From a virus, in IMG/VR virus record IMGVR_UViG_3300021424_000267, positions 1-21,652 of that record: 21,652 nt of DNA. One strand, 5' to 3'. The position numbers were made by a program, and so were the translations under genes. Shown in pieces: positions 1-21,652 of this stretch; position 1 is the first letter of the stretch; each line of letters opens with the position of its first letter. A model generated the notes under the pieces. The model searched no databases. It was not told the origin of the DNA and saw nothing but the letters and a program-made list of their open reading frames with translations.

Positions 1-3000
1 TGGGCTGGTATTGACAATCATATAGGTGGTGTCACTATTGGGACAACTACAAATTTAAATAAAACAGGTTTACTCGGAACAGCAAGAATTCGTTCTTTCC
101 AATTACATTCTTCAGATTATACTGGAACACCAAAATATAAACTTTCTTTCTTTGATTTAAAATTAGAATCAGGATATAACTTTGAGAGAGATGTCAAATG
201 GATCTCTGATGTTGGAGCAACAAATCCAATTGGGTTTTATGCTGAAGTAGATCAAGTTATTGCACCAAAGTCTTTAATTGGTCAAGTATCAGGAACTTCA
301 GGATCTGCTACTCTTACAGGTATTGGAACAAGATTTCAAGATGAATTTAAAATAGGAGATGCTGTAGTTTTAACAACATCAAATACATTTGTAGGATTTG
401 TAGATGCAATAGCTTCACCAACTTCATTAACAATTGATAGAAATTTTGCTGCAACTTACACAGGTGTAGTTTATGCACGTGGTAATACTATAATTTACGA
501 TCCTGAATATTTACCACTCGTTTTTCAAACTGGAATAGAAAATACAAAAACATTAAGAGGATTAGATACAGCTACAGGTCAAGACACAATTCTTTCATCT
601 ACACAAACTGTGAGAAGAATGATTACTGCTACAACAACTGCAGGTGGTGATTGGATACATACTTTAACAGAATCTACTGAATTCTTTTTAACAGATGCTG
701 ATTTAAATAACTATACATTATTTGATAATGTTGCAAAAACAATTGTAGCATTAACAACAGCTACAATAGCATTTGATAATAACGCAAATAGAAAAACAGT
801 CACTATTTCTGGTTTAACTGGTGCAAGAAGCTATACACTTTTAACAAGTATATTACAAACAGGAATAAGTGCTAGAGAAAAAATTAAAACAAAAACTAGT
901 TATACACAAGATATAACAACAGCTTTAAATGTCACTGGTAAATCTATTCTTTTAGATCATGCTGATGTTTGTGAAATAGTTTCAGTGTTAATGACTCCAG
1001 GAAATTATTCAGCATTCAGTTCAGCTGGTGCTATTAATATTACAAGTAGATTTACATTAGATTCAGGTCAAAGACCTACACATTATCAAAAAGGTGCATT
1101 AGTATTAAAAGATGGTGTTGGTGTACCAACTGGAGCAATTAGAGTAAATTACAAATACTTTGCTTATAGTGGTACAGGAAATTATTTCAGTGCTGATAGC
1201 TATTCATCTCTCAATTATGAAGATATACCAGAATTCAAAGTGACCAATTCAGATGGTTCAACTGTCTCAATACCTCTTCATGATGTGATTGATTATCGTC
1301 CAGTTATTTCTGGATTAAATACATTTGCACCAAATATACCAAAAATTGGTACAGATTTTAATACAAGCATTGCTAATTATTTACCAAGATGGGATAAAAT
1401 TGTTATAGACAGTATTGGTAATTTTACAGTAATTAAAGGTGTTCCTGGATTTGTTCCAAAACAACCTGAAGATCCAAAACAAGGTATGGTTCTAGGAACA
1501 GTATTTTTACCAGCATATACTAAGAAAGCAAGTGATGTTGCTATATTCAAACGTGATAATCGTAGATATACAATGCGTGATATAGGATTTTTAGAAAGAA
1601 GAATATCAAATTTAGAATATTATACAAGTTTAAGCTTATTAGAAAAAGAAACAGCAGCATTTAGTATTAAATCAGCAACATCAGGTTTAGATAGATTTAA
1701 AAATGGATTCTTAGTGGATCAATTCACAGGACATGGTGTAGGAAATGTTCAACATCCAGATTATCGTATAGCAGTAGATAATGCTACAAGAGAATTACGT
1801 CCTATGCACTTCACTGAAGCATTAGATATAATTGAAAACTTAGATTCAGGTCCACAAAGAGCAAGTAGATCGTATCAAAGATCAAATGATTTAATTACAT
1901 TACCATATACTGAAACATCATTTATTTTTAATCCAAATGCATCAAGAACAATCGATGTTAATCCATATAAGATTGGTGCATTCAAAGGAGAAATAGAATT
2001 AACACCTGAAGGAGATTTTTGGAAAGAAATAGATCGTCGTCCAGATTTACAAGTCACAGATGATAATGGTTATGATGCAATTAGATTTTTAGCTGAAAAA
2101 GCTGGAGTGTTTGGTACACAATGGAATGAGTGGTCATATAACTGGACTGGTTCAACAGATCAAGTAAGAACATATGAATCAGGGAATTCTGGATTTGAAG
2201 AAACAATTACAACACAAACTGGAACACAAACAAGAGATGGTATAACTACTTCTTTATCAAATAGTGTTAATTCTGTAAATTATGGAGATAGAGTAGTTGA
2301 TATTTCATACATACCTTATATTCGTCCAAGACCAGTTTCTTTTATCGCTAGAAATTTAAAACCTGATACTAAATTCTATGCATTTTTTGATAATGCTAGA
2401 ATTGATGATACAGCAATCATACCAGCTGATGTATTTAAATTAACAAAAGTTGTTGGTGCAGCAGACTTAAATTTTAACGTTCAACAAACTATTCAAACTG
2501 TTCTTTCTGATTCATTAGCAAGAACTGATTCTGAAGGAGTATTTCAACCAGCATTCCAATATGGTGATGTATTAAAAAATACATTACCTGCTGCTACAAC
2601 AGTTCAAACTATTAATCATATTACAAGTGCTAGTGGTGCAACATCATTTACATTAACTGTATCAAGTGCTAATGATATTCGTGCAGGACATCATGTTCAT
2701 TTATATAATTTTAATAATGTAAGAGTAAATCCAGAAGTTGTTTCAAACTTAATTGAAAACAATGTGACTTCTACAATTGTCACATTAGGAAACAATCACG
2801 CAAAACAATTAAATTTAAGAATATTTAAAGTATTAGCAGTTGCTGGAACAACATTAACATTAGGAAATATTAATGGTTCAATTATTGATGCTTTTGATTC
2901 TTATACAACAGCTGTATATCCTAATGGTGATGGTGGAAAATTACAAAGATTACAAGCTAGTGCAGTAGCTAACTTTGAAGGAATTTCAACTTCATCAACT

Positions 3001-5907
3001 GTTCGTAATATTCATATGATTAATATTAAAAATGGATTTGCAATTGGTGATGAATTAACAGGAGAAGTTGATATTGGTTCAGGTGCGAGAAATAGAGTGA
3101 CGATTACTGAGATTAATAGTGGATCTAATGCTTCAATTGCTCCTACAATGAAAGTATTAGGAAATAGTTTAAGAACTGATAATAATGGTTCAATTTGTGG
3201 TGTTTACTTTATACCAGAGAATGCATTTAGAACAGGTGAAAGAACATTTAAACTAATTGATAGTATTACGAACAATGATAAAGATTATGATTCTAAAGGA
3301 ACAGCATCTTATATAGCTTCAGGTACAACATTAAGTAAAGAAAGAACTATTGTAAATTCAAGAGATGTAAGATTTGTACAAGATAGATTGTTTCAAGAAT
3401 TGCCAGCAAGACGTACAACTACAACAACTAGACTTCTTTATACTCTTCCACCACCTGCACCAGATAATACAGGAGGTGGCGGTGGAAATGGAGGTGGAGG
3501 AGGTGGACACGATCCTGTAGCACAAACGTTTGTTGTATCAGGTAAAGGTGGCATATTTGTTTCTTCTGTTGATTTATATTTTGAAGAAAGAGGATCAAGA
3601 CCAATTCTTGTTGACTTAAGAGTGACAAATAGTGGCGTCCCTTCTTCACGTATAATACCACTTACAACTGTCACAAAAATGCCAGAAGAAATAAATGAAT
3701 CTTCAAATGGTTCAGTTGCAACAAATTTTAAATTTTTAGCACCTGTTCATTTACAAGACAATGAAACATATGCTATCGTCGTAAGAACAGATGAACCTGG
3801 AGCTAAAATATTTATTTCTGAATTGGGACAGCAAGATTTAATTACAACAAATATTATAACACAACAACCATTAACTGGTTCATTATATCTATCACAAAAC
3901 GCACAAGAGTATCAAATTAATCCTTTATTGGATATGAAATTTAAATTATATTCTTGTGTATTTAATACAGGTGTTGTTGCTGATGTTGAATTAAAAGCAA
4001 ACCCACCATTAACATTTAAATTAGATGAAAATCCATTTACATTTACTCCGAATACACCACATGTAAGAGTAAATGCTAGAAATCATGGATTCACATTTAA
4101 TGATAAAGTAGTTATCACAGGAGTTCCTACAGGAACATATGGTGGTAGTGGTGCGAATGGTGTTCCTCATAGTTTATTAAATGGTTCACACTTGGTATTA
4201 GCTGAAGGATTAACAAAAGATTCTTTTATGATACAATTACAAACTACAGATGCAAATGGACAGAGTTTAATTACAGGAACAACAGCAAACTTTGTTAAAA
4301 GTAATGTTGGTGGAACAAATGTACTTTGCTCTCGTCAATTGAATGTTGATGCACTTTATTTAAAAACAAATGATTTAATCTTTACAGATACAAGTATTGA
4401 TTATACAGTAATTGCTTCAGATAAAGATGGTGCGACCACTGATCCTCTTCCATTAATTGCAAATGAAAATTATTTCTTCACAGGAAGAAAAATAGTTAAA
4501 TCTTATGAAAACCAAACTGTCGTATCAAATACACCATTGTTAAAGAAACCAAGTTTAAGAATAAAAGCAAAATTAAAATCATTTAATGCTAATTTATCTC
4601 CTGTAATAGATTTACAAAAAATTGGTTTATTTGTTATATCGAATTCTGTTGATAATTTAACTTCAACAAACTTAAATGTTCCTGGAGTTGATAATAGAGA
4701 TATATTAGTTAATAACACAATCGTAGATTCTGATACATTTATAACTGGAACAGGAACAATTACATCAGCAACAAACTCAACAACAGTCACTGGTACAGGA
4801 ACATCATTTGTCACTGAAGGAAGAGTTGGCGATTTCTTAAGAGTTGGTGACACTGCAATTGGAGTAATTGCTTCAATTACGAATAATACAACAATTGTTT
4901 TAACAGCAAATGCACTTTCTGCACAAACTACTGCTGCTTATAAAATAGTAGCAAGACCAGTTGTTGAATTATCACACAATGCTAAAGGTAATGGACAATT
5001 AGTCACATGGATTGATGCAGCTGATAATTTATTAGCAAATACTCTAATTGGTTCTGAATTGGTTTTAAGTGGCGTTTATGCTAATGCTTTAGATGGAACT
5101 TATAAGATTGCAAATGTAGTTGAAGAATTTAATTTAGATCGTTATGCTGGTTCTGCTGATGGTAATAAAGTGACAGTCACACTAGATAGTCCTTTTACAA
5201 ATATTCCAACATCAAATACTATATTTTTAGATGTTGTTAATGATGTATTAGAATTTAATTTATCAGGATCGCAAACATCAGCAACAAACAGTATTACAAT
5301 AACATCAACAGCAAATAACACTTCAGTAATATCAGCTGGAGATAAAATTATATCAACTACATTATATGAAGTAGTGACACCAGATGGTGGAACAGCACAA
5401 AGATTAGAGAAAAGAGTAATTGGTACTGTTGCTTCAGTAGCTGCAGGTTCAATTACATTAAATGCAAATGCTACAGTAGCTTTAACACAAACTATGGCTG
5501 TTCGTAAAACATTAGCAAACTTTAAAATACAACAATATGATGCTTTTGTAGATGATTATGCTCCAACTGGTTCTACAAATTTAGCAAACTATATTACAAG
5601 AACATTAGCATTAGCTACTCCTGCTTCAAATATTAAAATATTATTTGATGCTAATGTACCAAATGATACAAATTTAAAATTATACTATCGTTCTTGGAGT
5701 GATTCTGTTGATCTAAATAAATTAAAATTTAATGAAATTACTTTACCTATTTCTTCTAAAGACTCATTAGATGTGTTTAGAGAAAGAACAGCTACATTAG
5801 AAAATATTACACCATTTCAAAATTTACAAATAAAATTGGTATTTAAATCAACAAATCCAGTTTATGTACCAAAAGTTAAAAATTTAAGAGTTATTGCATA
5901 TAGTTAA
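1..5907 (+). CDS. Giant phage structural protein (tail/baseplate-associated), 5'-truncated
   Basis: The frame is open from base 1 to the stop at 5905-5907 (at least 1968 residues); the GTG at 610 is only an internal codon, so the true start lies upstream of the window. Window-residues about 26-60 (GTARIRS... then KYKLSFFDLKLESG) and 521-550 (RYTMRDIGFLERRISNLEYY) match, from memory, the large DUF4815-type structural proteins of marine T4-like phages. A Pro run and Gly-rich hinge (about 1150-1169) is followed by a beta domain beginning DPVAQTFVV and containing ILVDLR, PVHLQDNETYAIVV and QQPLTGSLYLSQN, also typical of these virion proteins. The C-terminus carries YYRSW and PKVKNLRVIAYS. Repeated SGT-type beta modules lie near 94-160, 1584-1655 and 1755-1840. 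The role as a virion component is inferred; exact position in the tail is unknown. An alternative is a fibre-anchoring protein. Confidence 0.85.
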   Translation, partial: WAGIDNHIGGVTIGTTTNLNKTGLLGTARIRSFQLHSSDYTGTPKYKLSFFDLKLESGYNFERDVKWISDVGATNPIGFYAEVDQVIAPKSLIGQVSGTSGSATLTGIGTRFQDEFKIGDAVVLTTSNTFVGFVDAIASPTSLTIDRNFAATYTGVVYARGNTIIYDPEYLPLVFQTGIENTKTLRGLDTATGQDTILSSTQTVRRMITATTTAGGDWIHTLTESTEFFLTDADLNNYTLFDNVAKTIVALTTATIAFDNNANRKTVTISGLTGARSYTLLTSILQTGISAREKIKTKTSYTQDITTALNVTGKSILLDHADVCEIVSVLMTPGNYSAFSSAGAINITSRFTLDSGQRPTHYQKGALVLKDGVGVPTGAIRVNYKYFAYSGTGNYFSADSYSSLNYEDIPEFKVTNSDGSTVSIPLHDVIDYRPVISGLNTFAPNIPKIGTDFNTSIANYLPRWDKIVIDSIGNFTVIKGVPGFVPKQPEDPKQGMVLGTVFLPAYTKKASDVAIFKRDNRRYTMRDIGFLERRISNLEYYTSLSLLEKETAAFSIKSATSGLDRFKNGFLVDQFTGHGVGNVQHPDYRIAVDNATRELRPMHFTEALDIIENLDSGPQRASRSYQRSNDLITLPYTETSFIFNPNASRTIDVNPYKIGAFKGEIELTPEGDFWKEIDRRPDLQVTDDNGYDAIRFLAEKAGVFGTQWNEWSYNWTGSTDQVRTYESGNSGFEETITTQTGTQTRDGITTSLSNSVNSVNYGDRVVDISYIPYIRPRPVSFIARNLKPDTKFYAFFDNARIDDTAIIPADVFKLTKVVGAADLNFNVQQTIQTVLSDSLARTDSEGVFQPAFQYGDVLKNTLPAATTVQTINHITSASGATSFTLTVSSANDIRAGHHVHLYNFNNVRVNPEVVSNLIENNVTSTIVTLGNNHAKQLNLRIFKVLAVAGTTLTLGNINGSIIDAFDSYTTAVYPNGDGGKLQRLQASAVANFEGISTSSTVRNIHMINIKNGFAIGDELTGEVDIGSGARNRVTITEINSGSNASIAPTMKVLGNSLRTDNNGSICGVYFIPENAFRTGERTFKLIDSITNNDKDYDSKGTASYIASGTTLSKERTIVNSRDVRFVQDRLFQELPARRTTTTTRLLYTLPPPAPDNTGGGGGNGGGGGGHDPVAQTFVVSGKGGIFVSSVDLYFEERGSRPILVDLRVTNSGVPSSRIIPLTTVTKMPEEINESSNGSVATNFKFLAPVHLQDNETYAIVVRTDEPGAKIFISELGQQDLITTNIITQQPLTGSLYLSQNAQEYQINPLLDMKFKLYSCVFNTGVVADVELKANPPLTFKLDENPFTFTPNTPHVRVNARNHGFTFNDKVVITGVPTGTYGGSGANGVPHSLLNGSHLVLAEGLTKDSFMIQLQTTDANGQSLITGTTANFVKSNVGGTNVLCSRQLNVDALYLKTNDLIFTDTSIDYTVIASDKDGATTDPLPLIANENYFFTGRKIVKSYENQTVVSNTPLLKKPSLRIKAKLKSFNANLSPVIDLQKIGLFVISNSVDNLTSTNLNVPGVDNRDILVNNTIVDSDTFITGTGTITSATNSTTVTGTGTSFVTEGRVGDFLRVGDTAIGVIASITNNTTIVLTANALSAQTTAAYKIVARPVVELSHNAKGNGQLVTWIDAADNLLANTLIGSELVLSGVYANALDGTYKIANVVEEFNLDRYAGSADGNKVTVTLDSPFTNIPTSNTIFLDVVNDVLEFNLSGSQTSATNSITITSTANNTSVISAGDKIISTTLYEVVTPDGGTAQRLEKRVIGTVASVAAGSITLNANATVALTQTMAVRKTLANFKIQQYDAFVDDYAPTGSTNLANYITRTLALATPASNIKILFDANVPNDTNLKLYYRSWSDSVDLNKLKFNEITLPISSKDSLDVFRERTATLENITPFQNLQIKLVFKSTNPVYVPKVKNLRVIAYS

Positions 5908-6341: not shown

Positions 6342-6665
6342 ATGGCGAATGTATTTACAAATGGTTTTCAAAGAGATATTGGAACAACACCAATTACAAT
6401 ATATACATGCCCTGCAAATAAGAAGTCAATTTTAATTGAATTAGATGTTTGTAATACAACAAACGCAAATGTTCAAGTTGCTGCTTATATAACTTCAGGT
6501 GGTCAGGATTTTCATTTAGTTAAAAATGCTCCGATACCAGCAGGTGGAACACTTCAGGTAATATCTGGGCAAAAAATTGTTTTGAAAAATTCAGAAATTG
6601 TAAAAGTTGTTTCTAATACTGCAACATCAGTAGATGTTGTAGCGAGTATTTTAGAAGACGTATAA
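6342..6665 (+). CDS. Small beta-sandwich-like virion protein
   Basis: This gene encodes 107 residues made almost entirely of alternating hydrophobic strands: ITIYTCPANKKSILIELDVC (about residues 18-37), then VQVAAYITSGG, then PIPAGGTLQVISGQKIVL, and a VDVVASILEDV end. This pattern matches a small conserved structural protein of T4-like marine phages that I recognise by its CPANKKSI and PAGGTLQV stretches but cannot name. There is no signal peptide, transmembrane segment or catalytic motif. The start is supported by AGGA at 6331-6334, seven bases upstream; this Shine-Dalgarno lies inside the Leu-Gly-stop end of the preceding gene, so the two genes are tightly packed. The role as a decoration or baseplate component is inferred. 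Confidence 0.75.
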   Translation: MANVFTNGFQRDIGTTPITIYTCPANKKSILIELDVCNTTNANVQVAAYITSGGQDFHLVKNAPIPAGGTLQVISGQKIVLKNSEIVKVVSNTATSVDVVASILEDV

Positions 6666-6687: not shown

Positions 6688-8616
6688 ATGGCATATATTG
6701 GTTCATCAACAGTAATACCTATTACAACTCAAATCCGTCCAAGAGATGAGTTTGTATCGAATGGATTTCAGAAAGAATATTTTCTTTCTCAGGAGATTCC
6801 AGGAGGTTTTGAAAGTAATGTATTAGCGATTGTGGATAACGTTCCACAAGAGCCAATTAGTGCATACACAATTAAAGATATTCAAAGATTAACTATTTCA
6901 GCTGTAAGTGCAAATACATTAAGAAGTGTCAACCTCGCAAAACCAACATCAAGCCCATATACTGGTGTCACTGATTATTCAGCAAATACTACATTAATTA
7001 CTGCAGTAAATCAATTACTTAATGGTCAAGCACCATTTGCTGCAAGAGCAAATAACACAATACGTTTAGAACAAAGATTAGTTTCAAATAATAATTTAGT
7101 TTCTTCTATGACAATAGATAAAACAGATTCTTTGACCCAACCAACTGCTTTTAATGGTACTTCAGTTTCAGGTATATTTACTTCGAATACAATTAACGAA
7201 TATGTAATTTTTCATGATGCCACAGCAAATGATTTTCTTGCTTTAACAACAACAGGATTAGTGACAAGAGCAAACACTGGTGCTATTAGTAATATCGATG
7301 ATAAATTTTATACAGTTTCTTCTTTCAGTAGTGAAATAGAACAACCAAAAGCTGGAGATAAAATTACACAAGCAAGTAGTGGTGCGATAGGATTTGTGGC
7401 AAATGCTACATCAAGTTTTGTTGATGTTGTTCTTTCTGGTTCAACTAATTTTACCACACAAGGTAGTGGTGGTGGTGTAGTAAATTATGTAGAAGGAAAA
7501 AGTGTAGATTTTAATACTGATACAATTACATATGAAAGTATCATAACTGGTTCTTTTGATGTCACAGCAGTTTCTACAATTAAATTTAGAGGATTACAAT
7601 TTACTGGATTCCCAAGATCAGGACAAAAAATTCTTATTAACCATTTAGGTGGTAGCAACTTTCAAGTAAATCCAACAGCTGGTAGTGTCACTGATTTAGC
7701 ATTATCAGATAATTTAAAAACATTTACAGTTGATAAATTTACATCAACACAAGGACAAACAACTTTCACATTATCAAAGAGTCCAGTAAGTGTTCAAAGT
7801 ATTTTAGTGACAATTAATGGTGTTGTACAAACAGATACAGTTGGTTATACTTTACAAAATCAAAATCAACTTTTATTAAGTGCACCATTGAATGCAGGAA
7901 TATCTGTTAATGTATTACATTTAGGATTCAGTACAGTTTCTCGTAATTCATTTGTTGATGGAGCAATCACTGCTGCAGCAATTCAAGATTTAGGAATTAC
8001 TGGTTCAAAAATAGCAAACAATACAATTACAAGCAGCAAACTTGTTGCTGGCTCTGCAATTGCAAATATAGGTTATACACCACACGATCCAACTTCAGTA
8101 AGTCAACAAAGTTATACTGGAGGTGTGACATTTAATGCTGCTGTGACATTAGCAAATGGACATCTTGTATTTCCTGGAACAGCAAACCCAGCTACAAATG
8201 ATAATACTTTAGATGAATATAGAGAGGGTGATTATACACCATCACTTTCAGTCGCTGCAGGTGGTAATTTAAATACACTTACTTATGGTACAAGATTAGG
8301 AAAATTTATAAAAATTGGTAGATTATGCAAAGTTTCAGGTTCAATTACAATAACTGCTCTTGGAGCATCGAATGGCAATCTTTTCATAACATTACCATTT
8401 AGTACAAACCAAACAGGAAATAGACCAAAAGATTGGGGAACACTGGTAATATCCAATGTTCAGGGAACATTTACAAATCCTATAATCTTTACAGATAATT
8501 TTGGATTATCAAATACTGCAGTTTATGTGATGAAAGGTGCAACACAAGCAACAGTGGCAGATTTAACTAGTACATCAGTTTTGGAATTTAGCATAACATA
8601 TATTACAGAAGTATAA
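6688..8616 (+). CDS. Tail fibre-like protein with fibre-tip C-terminal domain
   Basis: This gene encodes 642 residues. The N-terminus (MAYIGSSTVIPITTQIRPRD, then SNGFQKEYFLSQEIPGG) is an attachment-type domain of marine phage fibres. Around residues 345-420 sits a common fibre module with TTFTLSKSPVSVQSILVTIN, GVVQ and SAPLNAGISVNVLHLG, followed by the linker AIQDLGITGSKIANNTITSS. The C-terminal 135 or so residues begin NTLDEYREGDYTPSL and contain GKFIKIGRLCKVSGSI and LPFSTN, a fibre-tip domain common in environmental phages and a candidate for receptor contact. No clear Shine-Dalgarno precedes the ATG at 6688 (the leader is A-rich). Fibre identity is well supported; the receptor is unknown. 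Confidence 0.85.
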   Translation: MAYIGSSTVIPITTQIRPRDEFVSNGFQKEYFLSQEIPGGFESNVLAIVDNVPQEPISAYTIKDIQRLTISAVSANTLRSVNLAKPTSSPYTGVTDYSANTTLITAVNQLLNGQAPFAARANNTIRLEQRLVSNNNLVSSMTIDKTDSLTQPTAFNGTSVSGIFTSNTINEYVIFHDATANDFLALTTTGLVTRANTGAISNIDDKFYTVSSFSSEIEQPKAGDKITQASSGAIGFVANATSSFVDVVLSGSTNFTTQGSGGGVVNYVEGKSVDFNTDTITYESIITGSFDVTAVSTIKFRGLQFTGFPRSGQKILINHLGGSNFQVNPTAGSVTDLALSDNLKTFTVDKFTSTQGQTTFTLSKSPVSVQSILVTINGVVQTDTVGYTLQNQNQLLLSAPLNAGISVNVLHLGFSTVSRNSFVDGAITAAAIQDLGITGSKIANNTITSSKLVAGSAIANIGYTPHDPTSVSQQSYTGGVTFNAAVTLANGHLVFPGTANPATNDNTLDEYREGDYTPSLSVAAGGNLNTLTYGTRLGKFIKIGRLCKVSGSITITALGASNGNLFITLPFSTNQTGNRPKDWGTLVISNVQGTFTNPIIFTDNFGLSNTAVYVMKGATQATVADLTSTSVLEFSITYITEV

Positions 8617-12500: not shown

Positions 12501-15157
12501 TAATTTCAACTCAATTAGGTGAAATAGTTTTAACTTCTTCTGGTTCAGGAACTCAAGTGTTTACAATTACATCTCAAGATGGTGCTTATGATGGAATATA
12601 TCCTATTGCTTCAGTGCCAACAAATGATTCATTTACACTAGCATTACCATTCTTAGTTCCAGCGAGAACTTATACTTTCAATTCAAGATCAACTTCGAAT
12701 AGTGGTAATGTAGATTCTACAGCTGATACAATTGTATTAGGTACAGCAAACCCTTATAATCCTACAAACTTCTTTCCAGGAGAATTAGTATCATATGCTC
12801 AAGGAGCAGGAAATACAGATATTATTAATGATGTTTCTGTAGATAATGCGGAAGTATATGTAATTCCAGTTAGTGAATTCGTAATATCACTTTCAAACTC
12901 TTATGTTTCAGCGATTGCAGGACAAGTAATACAATTAACACCAACAGGTGCGTCACAAACTCAAACAATTAGTTCACATAATATATTGAAGACATCAAAA
13001 CAGACTGGATCTGTTTCTGGTACTATTAATGGACGTGTATTAACTGGTACAGGAACTGCTTTCTTAAGTAAATTTAAGAGATTTGATTCAATATTCATTT
13101 ATATTGGAAGTTCATTGAAAGAATTTATAGTTGATAGAATTACTTCAGATACTGAATTAACAGTTGATCCAGGTCGACCAGCATTCCCTGCAACATTTTC
13201 TGCAGCGACTTTTTCTACATTAACAACAATCAATTTAAGACCAGATGGTTTCTCATTACATAAATCATTTGATGGTGGTATAGATATCACTGCTGGTACT
13301 TCACCAAACAGTAAGATTGTTCGTCAATCTCGTAAGTATTTTAGATATCAGTCAGGAAAAGGTATTCAAAATTCATTCGCGATTAACTTTTCACCTTTTA
13401 AAACTTTACAAAAGCTTGAATATGAAGCACTTACAGTAGGTGGTGCGACTGTACATACTATTAAAGCAGTTTGTCAAGAACCACACAATTTATCTGTAGG
13501 AAATGTTATACTTATTGATAAAGCTGTTGTCACAGTTGGAAATAACGTTTACAATGGTACTTTCCCTGTGTCTCATGTTATAGATTTGAAATCATTTAGA
13601 TATGTTATAGGATCTGCTCCAACTCAACAATCAGCAGCAGGATTCCCAGAATATGCAAGAGATACATGGTCTCAATCTTTTGTTCGTGCAGGTATGTTTG
13701 ACGATGCAAACGGATTCTTCTTTGAATATGATGGACAATATCTATATGTTGTAAGAAGATCTTCTACCTTACAGTTATCTGGAACATGTAATGCTACCAA
13801 AAACTCACAAGTAATTACTGGAAATAATACATCATTCCAATCACAGTTAATTATTGGCGATCATATACAAGTTAGAGGACAAGTATATCGTGTTATCGAT
13901 ATTTCATCTGATACTCGTATTGTAGTACAACCACCATATCGTGGAATTACTGCTACAGGTATTAAAACAACAATTCGTGAGGATGTTAAAGTAAAACAAG
14001 AATTCTGGAATATAGATCCTTGTGATGGAACTGGTCCAAATGGATACGTATTTGATATTCATAAAATTCAAATGTGTTATGCTGACTATTCTTGGTATGG
14101 TGCTGGTAAAATAAGATTTGGTACAAAAGATGCCAAAGGACATATTCATTATCACCATGAGTTTGTACACAACAATAAATTAAATGAATCATATTTACGT
14201 TCAGGAAATTTACCTGCAAGATATGAAATTGAAAATGGAGATGTTCCGACTTCTGCACCAACATTATTCCACTTTGGTACATCAGTTATAATGGATGGTA
14301 CATTTGATGATGACGATGCTTACTTATTCACATCACAATCAAAACCATTCGTATTAACTGGAACAACAGCAACACAAACTGCAACATCGACTGCAGTTAG
14401 TGAATTCAGAGAAATTACATTAAACGCAAGACGTGTGTTTGTGTATTCTTTCCAATGTTCAGAAGCTGATGCTAATAAATGTCAAGTGGGAATGTTAATT
14501 AAAGATGCTACAGGAAATATTCCTGATGGATCTTTCGTTGCGCAGGTTCAAAAAGCAGGTGCTAATTCAAGAGTGTTTACATCTTTCCCTGCTCTAGCAT
14601 CAGTTCCTTCAAATCCACAAATAGCAAGTGGAACAGTATTTACTGTTGGTGAAAACGCATTTGGTAATGGAGCAATTGACTTAACACGTCCAATTCCATT
14701 AGTTTCTGTTCGTTTAGCACCAGCTGTTGACTCTGGTATAACAGGCTCTGTTGGTGAAAGAGAAATTATCAATCGTATGCAAATGAAATTAAACAGTGGT
14801 GGTGTGACTGCGAATAAAGACTTAAACGTATTCTTTATTCTAAACGGAAATCCATCTAAATTAACTTTTGAGAAGAATCCTTCTCCATCATTATCAAATA
14901 CTATTTCTCACGATACAGGAGATATTATTAAAGATGGTACAGTTATATTCTCATCAAAAGCTTCTCCTGGAACAACTTCATTTGATATATCAGGTTTGAT
15001 CGATTTAGGTAATTCGATTCTCGGAGGAGATTCAGTTTATCCAAATGGTCCAGACTTAATCACGCTTGCGATACAGCCTACTGATACATCACAAATTACA
15101 TCGGCATCACCTTTGGTTGTGACAGGTAAACTATCTTGGTCTGAATCTCAAGCTTAA
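9569..15157 (+). CDS. Giant phage structural protein (tail/baseplate-associated), 1862 residues
   Basis: The start is supported by AAAGGA at 9555-9560. Residues 104-132 (DPVNKLRISAPENLIDTDFE, then YGSQSTKWE) and 1505-1557 (ADYSWYGAGKIRFGTKDAKG, then HEFVHNN and YLRSGNLPARYEIENG) are hallmark stretches of a very large virion protein of T4-like cyanophages and related marine phages, as I remember them; AGMFDDANGFFFEYDG (about 1373-1388) and VVRRSST also fit. In between are repeated beta modules with an HGL/HNL-type turn (near residues 175, 275, 368, 718, 808 and 1304) and two SGT-type modules (about 1148-1215 and 1402-1465). The protein has no membrane segment. It is probably part of the baseplate periphery or fibre network. 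Which tail component it forms is not shown by the sequence. Confidence 0.88.
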   Translation: MAKKLLFTYDINTAQNAIFLYGNVPLERILLITNVDAGKIIYNFADSTLGSTSCTYQPAIDQTRLVLAANFASQNFGPVTANTRLQIFVEEEFARVGFEEAMLDPVNKLRISAPENLIDTDFEYGSQSTKWETLQSVLNIPTIYSSSGDLSLEGLVSINTTIASKQVRCTFTTAHQQSIGNPIVIQGVSDITCEGAFLVTGVISSTEFFYEIDQPAIVTQNVAGSYTSIVPAKFFEGSNLILDPNAFDPNTGAAINPIATDGATPSVLTVRTLEPHGLKVNTKLYLRQTIGPKVLSITDPTGTAPDGRPFIDSSPTITITNNVNASTSTAAAEFKYDRPVTTWDWETTYFKYLQSADVNAAADEITWNAHGLSANAALLFNTQVRGDDTTPATNGGMEDGRVYYAKIVDANTIQLCTDYGTLASVVNLSAISTTRGFPRLGLVYKIEQRSDGNLFTAFFSRNVTTGATGQFNIGNINNTNTNSFTWNVQSIMGASRIPTRMVITQLNFSGANTNSSPINITYIAQNYLNAGSSNITYSLGAKGASPGTEFPNTDVTRCLFLSSGSYFINVQYQFGAINRDKFGNPTSSYNVVWTGSLDHVPTALNTAHSGSDLAGESFGKGTTAGNKIIGFQGVANNGTSVNGALDPFTHQANTRNNGRYGTGIIPYNFQATSTTTLGSIAINFPQAGNANYGTTSEIFVSFANELTALRNTFYIPSHGITENETCTINITGAGLSTTNRFAFCNSSSTVVPYNLTSFQVTANVVNSNYIRFTSKTSPFTNDVAAFPVEFNVQNNKTNTLYNTIFIQNHKVSGTTNAVYSTAGTVIGGLTNNTTFQLQFVNDSRLLLKQAGQVGAGSATTAAFGSTSNAQNQSFTVNFETPLGSVPTNAVVTMVQHRGRLSTASRFVSLKFADNINYNIGAVNGQDTSTFQNEPTWVPKNVSSFLTGSPVGVVVTASPTAGVNRAVPGMSNWWELRFLISTQLGEIVLTSSGSGTQVFTITSQDGAYDGIYPIASVPTNDSFTLALPFLVPARTYTFNSRSTSNSGNVDSTADTIVLGTANPYNPTNFFPGELVSYAQGAGNTDIINDVSVDNAEVYVIPVSEFVISLSNSYVSAIAGQVIQLTPTGASQTQTISSHNILKTSKQTGSVSGTINGRVLTGTGTAFLSKFKRFDSIFIYIGSSLKEFIVDRITSDTELTVDPGRPAFPATFSAATFSTLTTINLRPDGFSLHKSFDGGIDITAGTSPNSKIVRQSRKYFRYQSGKGIQNSFAINFSPFKTLQKLEYEALTVGGATVHTIKAVCQEPHNLSVGNVILIDKAVVTVGNNVYNGTFPVSHVIDLKSFRYVIGSAPTQQSAAGFPEYARDTWSQSFVRAGMFDDANGFFFEYDGQYLYVVRRSSTLQLSGTCNATKNSQVITGNNTSFQSQLIIGDHIQVRGQVYRVIDISSDTRIVVQPPYRGITATGIKTTIREDVKVKQEFWNIDPCDGTGPNGYVFDIHKIQMCYADYSWYGAGKIRFGTKDAKGHIHYHHEFVHNNKLNESYLRSGNLPARYEIENGDVPTSAPTLFHFGTSVIMDGTFDDDDAYLFTSQSKPFVLTGTTATQTATSTAVSEFREITLNARRVFVYSFQCSEADANKCQVGMLIKDATGNIPDGSFVAQVQKAGANSRVFTSFPALASVPSNPQIASGTVFTVGENAFGNGAIDLTRPIPLVSVRLAPAVDSGITGSVGEREIINRMQMKLNSGGVTANKDLNVFFILNGNPSKLTFEKNPSPSLSNTISHDTGDIIKDGTVIFSSKASPGTTSFDISGLIDLGNSILGGDSVYPNGPDLITLAIQPTDTSQITSASPLVVTGKLSWSESQA

Positions 15158-15175: not shown

Positions 15176-15874
15176 ATGGCATATTTGGGAAGAGATCCAA
15201 TTCACGGCAGTTCGCAAGTGCAAGTATTTGCACCGAATGGAGTCGCAACAACATTTTCTTTAGACTTTTCAATAGGGTCAACAGGAAGCATTCTTTTAAT
15301 TAAGAATGGTGTTGTACAACAGCCAAATATAGATTTCACATTACTTGGTGGGGGTTCAAGCATTTCAATAGCAGGTGCTCCCATTAATGCTGGTGTAAGT
15401 TTATATTGCATTTATCTTTCTACTCAATATCTTCAAAATACATTACCTGATAATTCAATATCAGCTGATAAACTTTCATCATCCATACGTGGTAAATTTC
15501 CAAGTGATGTAATTGTGCCAGCAATTGGTTCAACTTCTTTAAGTTATGGTGTTGGTAAATTCTTTATATTAGGAAATGATACATCTTATACACTTACATT
15601 ACCATCAGCACCAGCGATTGGTGATATGTTTTGGCTAACAAGACCAGTAAGTAATGCAATTAATGCGATTACAGTTTCTATTAATACAAATGGAAATAAT
15701 ATATCTTCTGGTGATACAAATGCAGCATTAAATGTATTAAATGGTGCTTCCGTCAGTGTTTTACTTGATAAACTTGCGAGCACAGACTCAAGAAGAACAA
15801 GATGGTTTGTTTATGTAGGCACAGTTGCGAGTGAAAATATAGGTTGGTTTATGTATAGGGTTGATGCTTTTTAA
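15176..15874 (+). CDS. Fibre-like structural protein with INGV-Q module
   Basis: This gene encodes 232 residues. It opens MAYLGRDPIHGSSQVQVF, close in style to the MAYIG start of the 642-residue fibre at 6688. Residues about 18-80 form the same fibre module found inside that protein (TTFSLDFSIGSTGSILLIKN, then GVVQQPNIDFTL and GAPINAGVSLYCIYL), and the linker DNSISADKLSSSIRGKF follows. The last half (YTLTLPSAPAIGDMFWL, then NGNNISSG and RTRWFVYVG) looks like the beta-structured C-terminal domain common to phage fibre tips, where TLP strands precede a hydrophobic core and a Trp near the end. The Shine-Dalgarno is weak (GAAGAAAG about ten bases upstream). Compared with the 6688 fibre it lacks the shaft. 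It is probably a short fibre or fibre tip. Confidence 0.8.
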   Translation: MAYLGRDPIHGSSQVQVFAPNGVATTFSLDFSIGSTGSILLIKNGVVQQPNIDFTLLGGGSSISIAGAPINAGVSLYCIYLSTQYLQNTLPDNSISADKLSSSIRGKFPSDVIVPAIGSTSLSYGVGKFFILGNDTSYTLTLPSAPAIGDMFWLTRPVSNAINAITVSINTNGNNISSGDTNAALNVLNGASVSVLLDKLASTDSRRTRWFVYVGTVASENIGWFMYRVDAF

Positions 15875-15906: not shown

Positions 15907-16242
15907 ATGGCACAAATTACCGACTTATTTGTAGATCAAGGAAGTGATTGGTCTGCCATATTAACATTTTCGAATGTTGATGGAACAGCAAGAGATTTTA
16001 CAAATTGCACTGTTGCAGGACAATTAAGAAAAGGGTATGGTTCTTCAACATTTACTGCAATAACGACTACTTTTCCTGCTCCAGTGACTAGTGGTAAAAT
16101 AAAATTAGCATTAGGAAATGCTACAACAGCAGCATTAAAAGCTGGTAGATATGTTTATGATGTTGAAGTTGTTGATTCACAGGGTTTAAAAAGTAGAGTC
16201 GTAGAAGGAATTATAACTTTAACACCAGAGGTCACAAAATAA
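15907..16242 (+). CDS. Small virion structural protein, Ig-like/upper-baseplate type
   Basis: This gene encodes 111 residues. The start MAQITDLFVDQGSDWSAILT, the middle VAGQLRKGYGSSTF, and the end AGRYVYDVEVVDSQGLKSRV, then EGIITLTPEVTK, match a small conserved structural protein of T4-like marine phages that I recognise by pattern. The arrangement (a strand pair, a Q-x-R-K segment, then AGRYxYDVEV and an EGxIxLTPEVT end) resembles the immunoglobulin-like N-terminal domain of baseplate upper proteins of other phages; that comparison is inference. AGGA at 15893-15896 supports the start. The stop overlaps the start of the next gene by one base (TAATG), which implies translational coupling with the 95-residue product. 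Confidence 0.8.
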   Translation: MAQITDLFVDQGSDWSAILTFSNVDGTARDFTNCTVAGQLRKGYGSSTFTAITTTFPAPVTSGKIKLALGNATTAALKAGRYVYDVEVVDSQGLKSRVVEGIITLTPEVTK

Positions 16243-16529
16243 TGGCAGATTTAGTAGTCACAGTAGATTCGCAAGGGAGTACAATTACACCAAGTAATAC
16301 TACTTTAACAACTTCGAATACAACTGCTGGAATTAGTACTACAGCAATTACTACAGTTGGAATACAAGGTGCATCAGGTGCAGCAGTTCCAATATCTGAA
16401 AATGTTCAAGTCGATGTGATTACTGAAGGATTAAATAATGGTTCAGTTTTAGTTTATAAAACGAACACATCTAAATGGACAGCTACAAAAAACTTAAATT
16501 TACAAAATGTAGATAGTGGAGAATATTAA
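16242..16529 (+). CDS. Small Thr/Asn-rich structural protein ending VDSGEY
   Basis: This gene encodes 95 residues. The N-terminal half is low-complexity, rich in Thr, Ser and Asn (MADLVVTVDSQGSTITPSNT onward) and contains GIQGASGAAVP. The C-terminal half reads ITEGLNNGSVLVYKTNTSKW, then NLNLQNVDSGEY. The NGS-LVY and VD-x-G-x-Y elements also end the 882-residue fibre encoded just downstream (NGTTLVYGDVDGGTY), so the two probably share a C-terminal module. The ATG overlaps the preceding stop by one base and AGAGG lies at 16227-16231. It is likely a virion adaptor expressed with its partner at 15907; no enzymatic motif is visible. Confidence 0.75.
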   Translation: MADLVVTVDSQGSTITPSNTTLTTSNTTAGISTTAITTVGIQGASGAAVPISENVQVDVITEGLNNGSVLVYKTNTSKWTATKNLNLQNVDSGEY

Positions 16530-16547: not shown

Positions 16548-19196
16548 ATGGCATCAATAATAAGAATTAAACGTTCCAGTACTTCGGGCAATCCCCAGAC
16601 ACTGGCAGCAGGAGAATTAGCATATTCTTCACTTTCAGGTTTACAGAATAATGGTGGTGATCGTCTATACGTTGGTATAGGTGCAGAAACATCAGGAAAT
16701 GCTGCAAATCATTTTGTAGTCGGTGGTAAATATTTCACTGATATGTTGGATCATGTACAAGGTACATTAACAGCAGATTCAGCAATTGTCACAGACGCAA
16801 ATTCTAAAATAAACAATTTAAAAGTAGATAATCTAGATCTAGATGGAAATACAATTACTTCAACAGATGCCAATGGAAATATTGTATTAGATCCTAATGG
16901 AACTGGTTATGTATCAATCACTGGAACAAATGGTCTTGTTATTCCAGTAGGAACAACTGCACAACGTTCACCAAACGTTCAAGGAACAATTCGATACAAT
17001 ACTGATACTTCTTCATTCGAAGGATATTCAGGTGCAACTTGGGGATCACTTGGTGGTGTTAAATCTGTAGATGGTTTAACATTTATTAGTGCTGAATCTA
17101 CTCCAGGAGCATCAAACGATACACTTTCTTTCGTCACAGATAATGTTGAAAGAATGTCTCTTGATACTGATAGTTTAGATATTGCAAGTACAATTACAAC
17201 AGTAAATATTAACGCAACTACAGCTTCTTCAAACACTACAACTGGTTCATTAGTTGTTGATGGTGGCGTTGGTATAGCTGGAAATTTAAATGTTGGTGGC
17301 ACTGTAAGTATGGGTGCAGCATCATTTACATCTATCAATAATACACCAATTGGAAATGCTACACCAAGCACTGGTGCATTTACACAAGTAGATACTGATA
17401 ATATTCGCATTAATGATAATACAATTAGTTCTACTAATGCAAATGGCGATATTATTCTAGCACCAAATGGTACTGGTGATGTACTTTTAGACGCTGATAC
17501 AGTTAGAATCGGTGATGGTAATTCTACAGCTACTTTTACTTCAAATGGACAAGGAAATTTAGTTTTAAATACTGATGGTGGTGCTAGTTCTGGGTCAATT
17601 ACGATTGCACATAGTGCTAATGGTGATATTACTCTAGCACCAAATGGTACTGGTAAAACAGTTTTAAATAATGTTTTTATCAATGGTACATCAGATTCTC
17701 TTGCTGAATTTATTTACGATACAGTCGGCGGAGCAACTACTGGTGGAACTGGTATTACAGTCACAAATAACGATGCTGGTAATTCTTCTACAATTGCTAT
17801 TACAAATACAACTGTCACTGCTGGTTCTTATGGTTCATCCACAGAAATCCCTACATTTACTGTAAACGCACAAGGACAATTAACTGCTGCTGGTACAGCA
17901 AGCGTTGCATCTACATTAAATATTACTGCTGATACAGGAACAAATGATGCTGTTGCTCTTTTAAGTGAAACATTAAACATTGCTGGTGGTGAAGGAATTG
18001 ATACAGTTGTATCAAATAATACAATTACGATTGCTGGAGAAGATGCTTCAACAACAAATAAAGGTATTGCTTCATTTGACACAAGCAATTTTACTGTCAC
18101 ATCAGGTGCAGTCTCTACAAAAAATATTACATTAGGATCTTCAACACTAACAAATGGTTCAACAACAACTTCAATAGCTGGATTATTACAATTAGATGTT
18201 GATAATATTCAAATTGATGGAAATTCAATTCTTTCAACAAATGCTAATGGTGGAATTACACTTGATCCGAATGGAACAGGACATATTTCTGCGAGCAATG
18301 CATTAATTAAAGACGTTGCGAGTCCAGTTGATGGAAACGATGCTGCAAATAAAGCATATGTTGATGCAGTTGCTGAAGGATTACATGTTCATGCATCAGT
18401 AAAAGCTGCAACAGTAGCAAATTTAGTTGGTACATATAACAATAATGCTGGCACTTATACACTTTCAGCTGCATTAAATACACTTGATGGTTATTCATTA
18501 GTTAATGGTGATCGTATTTTAATTAAAGATCAAACAAATGCTTTTGAAAATGGTATATACGTTCGTACATCAAGCACAGTATTTACTCGTGCTGTAGATT
18601 TTAATTCAGTTGCTGAAATTTCTTCAGGTGATTTCTTATTTGTGACAAATGGAACAATTAATGGAAACACTGGTTGGGTGCAAACTATACCAATGGTGAC
18701 AATAGGTGTCACATCAATTCTTTTTAATCAATTTGCTGGTGTTGGTACATATATTGCTGGAGCTGGATTATTATTTACTGGAAACGTTCTTGATATAGTA
18801 TTAAAATCAGATGGTGGATTAGAAATTGTTTCAGATGAATTAGGTTTAAAATCATCAACAGCTGGAGATGGTTTAACGTTTTCTGCAGGTGTTTTAAACG
18901 TTGGTGGTACAGCAGATAGAATTTCTGTCTCTGCTGATAGTATTGATATTGCTGCAACTTATGTTGGACAAAGTACAATCACAACATTAGGTACAATCGC
19001 AACTGGTACTTGGAATGGTTCAACGATTGCTGCAATTTATGGTGGAACAGGACAAAGCACATATGCAATTGGTGATATATTAGTTGGTGCTGCAGCAAAC
19101 ACTTTAAATAAATTAACATTAGGTGGTTCAGGAACAGTTTTACAATCTAATGGAACGACTTTGGTTTATGGCGATGTGGACGGAGGTACATATTAA
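16548..19196 (+). CDS. Long repetitive tail fibre protein
   Basis: This gene encodes 882 residues, with a good AGGAG at 16533-16537. The N-terminus MASIIRIKRSSTSGNPQTLA, then GELAY and DRLYVG, is a fibre attachment domain that recurs at 19481. The shaft contains four copies of an ANG-x-I-x-L-x-PNGTG motif (near residues 109, 299, 358 and 567), often after DNL/DNI and ISSTN segments, and SGATW of the RYN type near 160. Residues about 590-745 (DAANKAYVDAVAEGLHVHAS, then LVNGDRILIKDQTNAFENGI) form a domain common in phage fibres. The C-terminus (TTLGTIATGTWNGSTIAAIY, then GGTGQSTYAIGDILVGAA) and the final VDGGTY are also fibre hallmarks. Host recognition is the likely role. A minus-strand open frame across 16979-17683 is a by-product of the composition. 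Confidence 0.88.
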   Translation: MASIIRIKRSSTSGNPQTLAAGELAYSSLSGLQNNGGDRLYVGIGAETSGNAANHFVVGGKYFTDMLDHVQGTLTADSAIVTDANSKINNLKVDNLDLDGNTITSTDANGNIVLDPNGTGYVSITGTNGLVIPVGTTAQRSPNVQGTIRYNTDTSSFEGYSGATWGSLGGVKSVDGLTFISAESTPGASNDTLSFVTDNVERMSLDTDSLDIASTITTVNINATTASSNTTTGSLVVDGGVGIAGNLNVGGTVSMGAASFTSINNTPIGNATPSTGAFTQVDTDNIRINDNTISSTNANGDIILAPNGTGDVLLDADTVRIGDGNSTATFTSNGQGNLVLNTDGGASSGSITIAHSANGDITLAPNGTGKTVLNNVFINGTSDSLAEFIYDTVGGATTGGTGITVTNNDAGNSSTIAITNTTVTAGSYGSSTEIPTFTVNAQGQLTAAGTASVASTLNITADTGTNDAVALLSETLNIAGGEGIDTVVSNNTITIAGEDASTTNKGIASFDTSNFTVTSGAVSTKNITLGSSTLTNGSTTTSIAGLLQLDVDNIQIDGNSILSTNANGGITLDPNGTGHISASNALIKDVASPVDGNDAANKAYVDAVAEGLHVHASVKAATVANLVGTYNNNAGTYTLSAALNTLDGYSLVNGDRILIKDQTNAFENGIYVRTSSTVFTRAVDFNSVAEISSGDFLFVTNGTINGNTGWVQTIPMVTIGVTSILFNQFAGVGTYIAGAGLLFTGNVLDIVLKSDGGLEIVSDELGLKSSTAGDGLTFSAGVLNVGGTADRISVSADSIDIAATYVGQSTITTLGTIATGTWNGSTIAAIYGGTGQSTYAIGDILVGAAANTLNKLTLGGSGTVLQSNGTTLVYGDVDGGTY
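16872..18290 (+). repeat. Four degenerate copies of an ANGxIxLxPNGTG-encoding repeat
   Basis: Copies start at about 16872, 17442, 17619 and 18246, each about 36-40 bases, within the 882-residue fibre. They encode NGNIVLDPNGTG, NGDIILAPNGTG, NGDITLAPNGTG and NGGITLDPNGTG. The second and third are nearly identical at the DNA level, differing mainly at synonymous positions and in the residue before the LAP. Spacing is irregular, so they mark repeating shaft domains and do not form a tandem array. Confidence 0.8.
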
Positions 19197-19432: not shown

Positions 19433-19460
19433 AGGCGAAGATCTTAATCGGTCTTCGCCT
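19433..19460 (+). terminator. Perfect hairpin after the acidic gene, possible terminator
   Basis: AGGCGAAGATC (19433-19443) pairs with GGTCTTCGCCT (19450-19460), with one T-G wobble and a TTAATC loop, giving an 11-pair stem. On the + strand the hairpin is followed by AATAAACAGG, not a T-run, so it is a poor intrinsic terminator in that direction. Read on the minus strand it is followed by TTTGTATTTTATT, a better T-rich tail. It may instead stabilise or process the upstream transcript end. Confidence 0.5.
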
Positions 19461-19470
19461 AATAAACAGG

Positions 19471-19480: not shown

Positions 19481-19831
19481 ATGGCAACAATAATTAAAAT
19501 TAAAGGTTCATCAGTACCAAATCAAGCACCAGTAGCCAATGATTTATCTTTTAAAGAATTAGCGTTAAATTACGCAGATGGAAAACTTTATTTTAAGAAT
19601 GCTGCTGGACAAATAGCTTATTTCTCATCAGACAGTGGTAGTCAACTTGGACAAGATGATGAGTTATTAAATCAGTTAGCATATGCAATTAAATTTGGTA
19701 TATTTCCTCTTTCAGATTATGGAAATGTTTCAGATTCAACAACTGATGCATTTGGTCAAATCATAGCATTTACATATGATAATCAAGCAGCAGAGGGTTT
19801 AAGAATAGTAGATAACGAAGGATTAGTATAA
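19481..19831 (+). CDS. Short anchor-only fibre-like protein
   Basis: This gene encodes 116 residues, with AGGA at 19468-19471. It starts MATIIKIKGSSVPNQAPVAN and continues DLSFKELALNYADGKLYFKN, then GQIAYFSS. This is the same kind of N-terminal domain as the start of the 882-residue fibre (MASIIRIKRSS... GELAY... DRLYVG). The remainder has LLNQLAYAIKFGIFPLSDYG and ends TYDNQAAEGLRIVDNEGLV. No shaft repeats or fibre-tip domain follow, so it reads as the attachment domain with a short tail. The stop is followed after one base by the ATG of the next fibre gene, which suggests coupled expression. It may be a short cap, an adaptor, or a partner that trimerises with another fibre; only the domain similarity is seen. 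Confidence 0.8.
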   Translation: MATIIKIKGSSVPNQAPVANDLSFKELALNYADGKLYFKNAAGQIAYFSSDSGSQLGQDDELLNQLAYAIKFGIFPLSDYGNVSDSTTDAFGQIIAFTYDNQAAEGLRIVDNEGLV

Positions 19832-19832
19832 A

Positions 19833-21652
19833 ATGCCAACACAATTACAATTACGAAGAGGGACTACAGTTCAACATAACACATTTACAGGTGCTGTTGG
19901 AGAAGTCACTGTTAATACGACAAAGAAAACAGCAGTCGTTCATGATGGAAGTACAGCAGGTGGTCTTGAATTACTTCGTGCTGATATGTCAAACGTTTTT
20001 GCTGCAGCAACTCCATCAATAACTTCTTTAACTACATCAGGAAACGTAGATGTGGGTGGTAATTTAACTGTCACTGGTACAACTACATTTAATGGCGGTA
20101 CAATCACTATGGGTGATGCTGATACTGATAATGTTGTATTTGGTGCTGATGTAAATTCAAATATTCTTCCAAACACAGATAACACTTATTCATTAGGAAA
20201 TTCTTCAAAGAAATGGTCTGATGTAAGAACAGTATTACTTACAACTACAGGTGCTGCTTCATTAGGAAGCACTCTTGATGTCACAGGAAATGTTGCAGTT
20301 AATACAAATAAATTTACAGTTAATGCTACAACTGGAGACACTGTTGTTGCTGGCGATTTATCCATAGGTGGTGGTGATATTATTGTTCCTGCAGGAAATT
20401 TAAGAATCACAACTCCCGCAATTGGCACGCAATTAATACTAAATTCAAATGGAAGCGGAGTTGACATTGGAAATGCGTTTGGATCAGGTATAATAGTTGT
20501 TCGCGACTTTACAACCTTTTTTAAATCTATTGAAATAGTAGGACAAAGTTTAAGTACTAACCAAACTACATTTAATTTATTAAACACAAATGCAACTACT
20601 CTAAACGTAGGTGGTGCTGCTACAACTTTAAATCTTGGTGCTGCATCAGGTACTACGACAGTTGGTAATAATTTAACAGTCACAGGAAATTTAACTGTAA
20701 ATGGTGCAACGACTACAGTTAATTCTACAACACTTACAGTAGATGATAAAAATATAGAATTAGCTTCAACTGCATCACCATCGGATGTTTTAGCAGATGG
20801 TGCTGGTATAACAATTAAAGGAACAACTGATAAAACATTTAATTGGGTTGATGCAACAGATGCATTTACATCAAGTGAAAATTTAGAAACTGCTGCAGGA
20901 AAAACAGTCGCATTAAGTGGTTCAACTTCAGGCAAAACAACATTAAACGTTTTAGCAACTGCAAGTGGAACATTAACTTTACCATCAGCAACAGATACAC
21001 TAGTTGGAAAAGCAACTACTGACACTCTTACAAATAAATCAATAAGTTTAACTACTAATACAATCAGTGGCACATTAGCTGAATTCAATACAGCATTATC
21101 TGATGATAATTTTGTTTCATTAACTGGAGCAGAAACACTAACAAATAAAACACTAACATCTCCAATAATTTCTAGCATCTCTAATACTGGAACATTAACT
21201 TTACCTACTTCCACAGATACATTAGTTGGTCGTGATACAACAGATACATTAACAAATAAAACATTAACTGAACCTAAATTTGTGAATGGTGGATTTATTG
21301 CAGATGATACAGGTAATGAGCAAATTAAATTTACTAAAACAGCTTCAGCAGTAAATGAATTAACAGTTTCAAACGCAGCAACAACAAATAGACCTTCTAT
21401 TGAAGCTACAGGAGATGACACAAACATTGGAATTAGTATAACACCAAAAGGTACTGGGACAATTGTTGTAGGAAATTCAATTATACCATCAGCTAATGCT
21501 ACAATGGATTTAGGATCTGCTTCAAATAAATTTAGAGATTTATATTTACATAACTCTTCATTCTTTATGGGAACTACAAAAGTGACAATGCATGCAGATG
21601 GTTATCTAGTATTTAATAACAATTCTGGTGGTGGATATCCTGCAGGATCCCT
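19833..21652 (+). CDS. Long tail fibre protein with Mtd-like N-terminus, 3'-truncated
   Basis: The frame is open from ATG 19833 (AAGGA at 19818-19822) to the window end, 606 full codons. The N-terminus (MPTQLQLRRGTTVQHNTFTG, then GEVTVN and VVHDGSTAGGLELLR) matches the major-tropism-determinant N-terminal type domain found at the head of many phage fibres. The shaft is made of variants of NLTVTGN, TLTNKTL and TLTLPSATDTLVG. A segment TTFNLLNTNATTLNVGGAAT, then TLNLGAASGTTTVGNNLTVT (about residues 250-290), is a familiar marine phage fibre motif. Two elements of the type NTYSLGNSSKKWSDV and ATMDLGSASNKFRDLYLHNS occur near residues 118 and 560; the second often comes shortly before the fibre tip. 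The tip itself lies outside the window. A minus-strand open frame at 20186-21427 is a shadow. Confidence 0.85.
   Translation, partial: MPTQLQLRRGTTVQHNTFTGAVGEVTVNTTKKTAVVHDGSTAGGLELLRADMSNVFAAATPSITSLTTSGNVDVGGNLTVTGTTTFNGGTITMGDADTDNVVFGADVNSNILPNTDNTYSLGNSSKKWSDVRTVLLTTTGAASLGSTLDVTGNVAVNTNKFTVNATTGDTVVAGDLSIGGGDIIVPAGNLRITTPAIGTQLILNSNGSGVDIGNAFGSGIIVVRDFTTFFKSIEIVGQSLSTNQTTFNLLNTNATTLNVGGAATTLNLGAASGTTTVGNNLTVTGNLTVNGATTTVNSTTLTVDDKNIELASTASPSDVLADGAGITIKGTTDKTFNWVDATDAFTSSENLETAAGKTVALSGSTSGKTTLNVLATASGTLTLPSATDTLVGKATTDTLTNKSISLTTNTISGTLAEFNTALSDDNFVSLTGAETLTNKTLTSPIISSISNTGTLTLPTSTDTLVGRDTTDTLTNKTLTEPKFVNGGFIADDTGNEQIKFTKTASAVNELTVSNAATTNRPSIEATGDDTNIGISITPKGTGTIVVGNSIIPSANATMDLGSASNKFRDLYLHNSSFFMGTTKVTMHADGYLVFNNNSGGGYPAGS
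20967..21260 (+). repeat. Two copies of a 72-base fibre-shaft repeat, 222 bases apart
   Basis: Copy one (20967-21038) and copy two (21189-21260) lie exactly 222 bases apart, each 24 codons long. Both encode GTLTLP followed by a TDTLVG and a TDTLTNK segment, with several substitutions. A further half-copy with TLTNKTLTSP starts near 21132. They represent duplicated shaft domains in the long fibre gene. Confidence 0.75.

Follow-up and report, generated by a model that had tools for sequence, protein, structure and literature searches.

The stretch analysed here, the 21,652 bases (positions 1-21,652) of IMG/VR record IMGVR_UViG_3300021424_000267, hereafter the window, comes from a T4-like myovirus and raises the question of why a phage should lack one short palindrome, GTWAC, altogether. 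GTWAC comprises GTTAC and GTAAC, which are reverse complements of each other, and GTSAC comprises GTCAC and GTGAC, the variants in the same frame; counts for genomes are given as observed/expected. An exact search of the window found neither GTTAC nor GTAAC, whereas about 33 GTWAC would be predicted by a maximal-order Markov model; GTSAC was found 54 times vs about 20 expected under the same model. When synonymous codons were permuted within each of the ten complete open reading frames (ORFs), which keeps the proteins and the codon usage, 1000 shuffles predicted 46.1 +/- 3.8 GTWAC, the lowest having 35, vs none seen, and GTSAC was present 47 times vs 14.5 expected, 45 of these lying in the Val-Thr frame.

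The codons show how the word was avoided. Valine preceding threonine in the complete ORFs was encoded by GTC (23) or GTG (22) and never by GTT or GTA, whereas in other positions it was GTT 218, GTA 158, GTG 25 and GTC 20 times. Codons ending in GT were followed by AAT (20) and TAT (11) and by no AAC or TAC, whereas AAC (102) and TAC (19) were used after codons not ending in GT. An earlier note on this DNA had claimed that both words are missing, that base composition predicts a few tens of sites and that GT-ending codons take TAT or AAT and never TAC or AAC, and our counts agree with all of this; it was also right that every Val-Thr pair uses GTC or GTG, although its count of 51 becomes 45 in the complete ORFs. 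The avoidance is thus fully confirmed. A site-by-site comparison was made in the gene for a VrlC-like protein, for which the non-avoider L017 (protein 74% identical) has 16 GTWAC and one GTSAC: ten of these 16 sites are GTSAC in the window with the same amino acids, one is another synonymous word, five lie at amino-acid changes and none is GTWAC. The synonymous replacement (GTC or GTG in 45 of 45 Val-Thr pairs, and the excess of GTSAC) is evidence of selection at the DNA level, and it disfavours sequencing error and mutational explanations because the compensation is synonymous. Sequencing or assembly error is ruled out by this in-frame compensation together with the agreement of many separate contigs, and codon-pair bias by the presence of the effect in more than one reading frame and its absence from the relatives G010 and G030.

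The proteins of the window matched tail and structural families. The VrlC-like protein was 34-35% identical to VrlC of the Pelagibacter phages Mosig and HTVC008M over 59-65% of the length, and a relative, the 144,834-base contig G007 (locus L013), bears homologues of the T4 core genes for terminase, portal, major capsid, DNA polymerase, clamp loader, UvsX and helicase, as annotated in HTVC008M; the assignment to a T4-like myovirus follows from these homologues and the VrlC match. The features of the window are as follows.

1..21652, no strand: GTWAC-free region (0 GTTAC and 0 GTAAC on both strands), by exact search and codon shuffle
610..5907, plus strand: VrlC/baseplate-like protein, 1765 aa (DUF4815, phrog_358), with 16 GTSAC and 0 GTWAC, by family and homologue matches
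6342..6665, plus strand: structural protein, 107 aa (phrog_1276), 0 GTWAC, by family match
6688..8616, plus strand: structural protein, 642 aa, 0 GTWAC, homologue in G007
8894..9550, plus strand: 218-aa protein, 0 GTWAC, homologues in G007 and the marine clade (below)
9569..15157, plus strand: virion structural protein, 1862 aa (phrog_5838), 0 GTWAC, by family match
15176..15874, plus strand: tail-fibre-like protein, 232 aa (phrog_18673), 0 GTWAC, by family match
15907..16242, plus strand: 111-aa protein (phrog_1084; LtfC-like beta-sandwich, slightly under the Pfam cut-off), 0 GTWAC
16242..16529, plus strand: 95-aa protein, 0 GTWAC
16548..19196, plus strand: fibre-like structural protein, 882 aa, 0 GTWAC, with homologue comparison
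19481..19831, plus strand: 116-aa protein, 0 GTWAC

The absence is genome-wide. Taking elimination as an observed/expected ratio below 0.1 where 15 or more sites are expected, GTWAC was eliminated from the window (0/46), from G007 (0/204) and from G029 (0/115), which is near-identical to G007 (149 proteins above 90%), and GTSAC in the avoiders was 2-3 times over expectation. Among the words differing from GTWAC by one mismatch in G007, only GTSAC departed strongly (2.38x), the remainder lying between 0.60 and 1.30, and the low ones (GTTAG, GGTAC and GCTAC) were lower still in the non-avoider G010. Because words other than GTSAC depart so little, the signal corresponds to an exact degenerate palindrome. 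The proposal in the earlier note of a palindromic DNA-level signal with GTSAC tolerated is borne out by this enrichment of GTSAC and by the other one-mismatch words, which were not purged; the checks that it suggested, counting beyond the window and shuffling with codons preserved, gave near-complete related contigs equally devoid of GTWAC and dozens of predicted sites where none was seen. The specificity needs one refinement, namely that several relatives spare TGTWACA, so flanking bases count.

The trait was restricted to particular clades. Close relatives with no GTWAC were, besides the window, G007, G013, G003, G006 and G011; a partial purge was found in G002 (15/112), G008 (17/83) and G018 (5/50), and no avoidance in G010 (114/115). 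A second, more distant clade of avoiders, with a guanine-plus-cytosine content of 0.35-0.37, contained G027 (8/223) and G028 (10/213); we call this clade marine and the group of the window freshwater, as we assume from the sample numbers. On a tree of the TET/JBP oxygenase, a protein common to these phages, 40 of 42 rows of one clade avoid GTWAC and the avoidance label changes 3 times vs about 26 in shuffles, a history that one gain with two losses and a few gains fit equally. G030 adjoins the avoiders, has matches to 97 G007 proteins at a mean identity of 61%, including most of the genes that can be compared, and had normal counts of GTWAC (87/89) and GTSAC (24/26, no excess). GTWAC was also normal in Mosig (255/270) and HTVC008M (177/167). 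The impression by eye that G004 is a clean mosaic was undercut by its site-rich half, in which GTSAC was still raised about 2x (21/10.5), partial relaxation being as likely.

Where sites survived, their flanks mattered. All 15 survivors of G002 were TGTWACA (19 expected in this context), vs 0/92 in other contexts; the same held for the five survivors of G018 (0/40 elsewhere) and the eight of G027 (25 TGTWACA expected; 0/197 elsewhere), and in G028 eight of ten were TGTWACA, other contexts giving 2/192. Every flank context was near expectation in the non-avoiders (G010, Mosig and G030). Survival in the relaxed relatives G004, G019 and G020 rose with the number of T flanks, from 13/50 with none to 46/75 with one and 24/29 with two, and the one-T survivors of the marine clade were as common in one orientation on the coding strand as in the other (4/62 and 4/71). 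G002, G008 and G009, which have many sites in common, are best taken as one lineage, G018 and the marine clade being separate from it. TGTWACA was also gone from the window (0/11), G007 (0/33) and G029 (0/16). Such a gradient would be left by a single enzyme that acts as a symmetric dimer, cuts at a rate set by the flanks and handles T-flanked sites poorly, and we give about even odds to the phages having recorded the in-vivo cutting profile of an undescribed enzyme, with the rate at GTWAC dropping from sites without flanking T through those with one T to TGTWACA.

Surviving TGTWACA sites were found only in the structural-gene part of G027 (0/8.8 in 1-80 kb vs 8/17.4 in 80-131 kb) and of G002 (15/15.5 in 1-44 kb vs 0/3.9 in 44-69 kb); this one-sided placement is suggestive and was not significant after allowing for the overall depletion. 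In Mosig (MT647606.1), GATC was reduced to 18/272 and, by word counts, all survivors were GGATCC (GATCA, GATCT and GATCG being 0), a second case in which a purge leaves one flank context untouched and a hint that flank footprints may be general.

We consider it likely, with a probability of roughly 0.7, that this lineage has been under long and strong selection by a host-resident orthodox Type II endonuclease recognising GTWAC; the pattern and its precedents point to such an enzyme as the agent, to its residence in the host and to a cutting rate behind the flank effect. This endonuclease would cut unmodified GTWAC in double-stranded DNA in the host population, as part of an orthodox Type II restriction-modification system encoded either chromosomally or by a resident mobile element; with no protecting phage methyltransferase found, each site would be a liability. 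Most sites would have been lost through synonymous changes, GTW becoming GTS in Val-Thr and TAC or AAC becoming TAT or AAT after GT. TGTWACA, which has T before GTWAC on both strands, would be cut more slowly and would hold the last sites to be lost, kept in less purged relatives and gone from the lineage of the window and G007. Restriction by the host, a rival element or the phage itself had been named as the likeliest cause in the earlier note; restriction keeps that place, and the phage itself has become an unlikely source.

Several points weigh against a host-resident enzyme. No host and no enzyme was found: a search with the terminase against genome contigs (GTDB genomes) found no relative, and a 54-mer of the tRNA-Thr gene (tRNA, transfer RNA) matched one contig of a metagenome-assembled genome among the GTDB genomes, whose genes gave no useful host signal. 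A host of its own, or a differing phage trait that lies beyond the stretch compared, could account for the normal count of G030, the comparison of gene content with G030 covering about 40-105 kb of G007, the most complete avoider of the freshwater type, and not its 1-39 kb or 105-145 kb. Instead of cutting rate, the flank effect could reflect the action of two enzymes or the time since exposure. SAR11 is a candidate host group because there are published myophages that have been assigned to its freshwater genus Fonsibacter (PMC7029224), with nothing here tying the window phage to SAR11. The tRNA genes of G007 are tRNA-Arg(ACG), tRNA-Val(GAC) and tRNA-Thr(TGT), at L024:3744-3820, 19317-19391 and 19393-19468; those for Val and Thr are adjacent and Val(GAC) reads GTC, a codon forced by the avoidance, possibly by coincidence.

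A nuclease encoded by a rival element (phage, satellite, plasmid or prophage), whose attack site-free phages escape, would leave a sequence trace identical to that of a host-resident system, and the trait is patchy among relatives; however, no such element was seen, and to lose hundreds of sites a phage must be exposed steadily and often, which a resident system provides more simply, so we regard this source as unlikely. We give still less credence to a nuclease of the phage itself, cutting GTWAC in host DNA while the absence of sites keeps phage DNA safe. G007 does encode two candidates, a SegE-like GIY-YIG protein (PF19835, E 8.6e-38) and an HNH_3 protein, and no DNA methyltransferase of the three Pfam families sought (PF01555, PF00145 and PF02086) was found in the related records searched, whose contigs may be incomplete. 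However, GTWAC is normal in G030, which has a SegE homologue (73% identical), the TET/JBP gene and the greater part of the variable region; this disfavours the SegE-like nuclease as the cause. Within the 40-105 kb of G007 compared, each protein matching marine avoiders but not HTVC008M, Mosig and G022 was also present in G030, and no avoider-only nuclease gene was found in the stretch comparable among G007, G027/G028 and G030. The phage is an unlikely source of the nuclease because no methyltransferase of these families was found and because G030 shares the genes and is normal. Modification of DNA by the TET/JBP oxygenase and an adjoining glycosyltransferase-like gene, making GTWAC harmful or leaving it unprotected, is scarcely credible: the oxygenase gene is present in the avoiders G007, G014 and G015 and not in the non-avoiders HTVC008M, Mosig and G022, but the TET-bearing cultured phages DLP6, Cr30, C48C1, S-CBWM1 and HTVC112P showed no GTWAC purge in the stretches examined, and neither did G030 or loci with 57-60% identical TET. 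As a sufficient cause, such hypermodification is rejected by these TET-positive non-avoiders.

Two further explanations would dispense with cutting of DNA, and both seem very improbable to us. If GTWAC were methylated or damaged in the DNA of host or phage and the site were thereby eroded by mutation rather than selection, methylation of its cytosine would make it a hotspot of C-to-T change; but such changes would turn Val-Thr into Val-Ile and give no enrichment of GTSAC, whereas the in-frame losses were at the wobble base (W to S) with the amino acids kept, and this explanation is largely refuted because of the GTSAC excess. The other supposes a toxin-like ribonuclease of host or phage that cuts GUWAC in messenger RNA, and absence from the sense strand cannot tell RNA from DNA for a word that is its own reverse complement; however, the two RNA words would then be reverse complements of each other purely by chance, the one-T survivors of the marine clade are even between orientations, and related phages have purged other palindromes of the Type II kind.

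MaeIII recognises GTNAC and Tsp45I GTSAC, in the same palindromic GT-N-AC frame; both would also select against GTSAC, and because GTSAC is enriched here their specificity does not fit. In the open-access papers searched, GTWAC itself is apparently not given as a restriction site: it turned up as a word in two papers, neither of which, to judge from title and abstract, deals with restriction. Orthodox Type II sites are characteristically eliminated from non-temperate double-stranded DNA phages (Rusinov et al. 2018, PMC6286503), and elimination as complete as this was uncommon there (7.5% of cases in the lifestyle comparison). The present case resembles those in its palindromic site, an observed/expected ratio below 0.1 (here 0), a lytic-type T4-like double-stranded DNA phage and no phage methyltransferase found among the three Pfam families sought; it differs in that the existence of the enzyme is deduced and in that the GTWAC survivors follow a TGTWACA flank rule. 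Staphylococcus phage K, a textbook case, has likewise completely lost one short site, GATC (Sau3A), from a genome of about 140 kb (PMC6532042), but there the host enzyme is known, whereas here it is presumed and the site is degenerate (W). The Pelagibacter myophages Mosig and HTVC008M share with the window phage a related T4-like architecture and purged palindromes, but the palindromes are ACGT and GATC in the former and TCGA in the latter, with GTWAC normal. No description of a flank rule such as TGTWACA was found in the searchable literature. The class of phenomenon is already known; the specificity has no assignment in the literature searched, and the flank gradient is the unusual part.

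A specific endonuclease and a methylation motif in bacteria are predicted here on the basis of phage sequence, together with the flanking bases that would slow the enzyme, and matched avoider and non-avoider phages are a resource for finding hosts and for dating the gain or loss of restriction pressure. If the phages do record a cutting profile, the kinetics of unknown enzymes could be read from their footprints in phage genomes, which would reveal not only recognition sites but also flank preferences.

Other words were purged from related phages. Besides its loss of GATC, Mosig had no ACGT (0/217), HTVC008M no TCGA (0/75 in the 50 kb tested), and G022 had AGCT 1/332 and GCWGC 14/199; the purging of different palindromes by related T4-like phages fits a restriction pressure that varies by host. 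The second avoider clade (G014, G015, G016, G027 and G028) lacked ACGT entirely, and GATCA was nearly gone from G014 (3/135) and G015 (7/118), losses that Mosig has in common with this clade, hinting at a shared restriction pressure. The non-palindromic ACCGT/ACGGT was absent from G007 (0/85), G010 (0/33), G014 (0/71) and G015 (0/55), and from G027-G030 (0 in each), a loss independent of GTWAC avoidance; its count in Mosig was normal. GGCC was also nearly absent from G007, G010, G014, G015 and G027-G030.

Some genes of G007 deserve mention. At 44780-46078 (L022:4780-6075) lies the gene for the TET/JBP-family 2-oxoglutarate oxygenase (PF12851, E 2.4e-23), labelled 'SNF2 DNA repair protein' in some cultured phages; its substrate may be thymine rather than phage-made 5-methylcytosine, a possibility raised because no C5 methyltransferase (PF00145) was found. 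The adjoining gene at 46081-47085 is glycosyltransferase-like by appearance and had no Pfam match. The variable region at about 75-97 kb encodes a beta-ketoacyl synthase (PF00109/PF02801), class III aminotransferases, an Asp/Arg hydroxylase-like protein and what looks on inspection like a fatty-acid desaturase, a metabolic set that is as a whole unusual in a phage.

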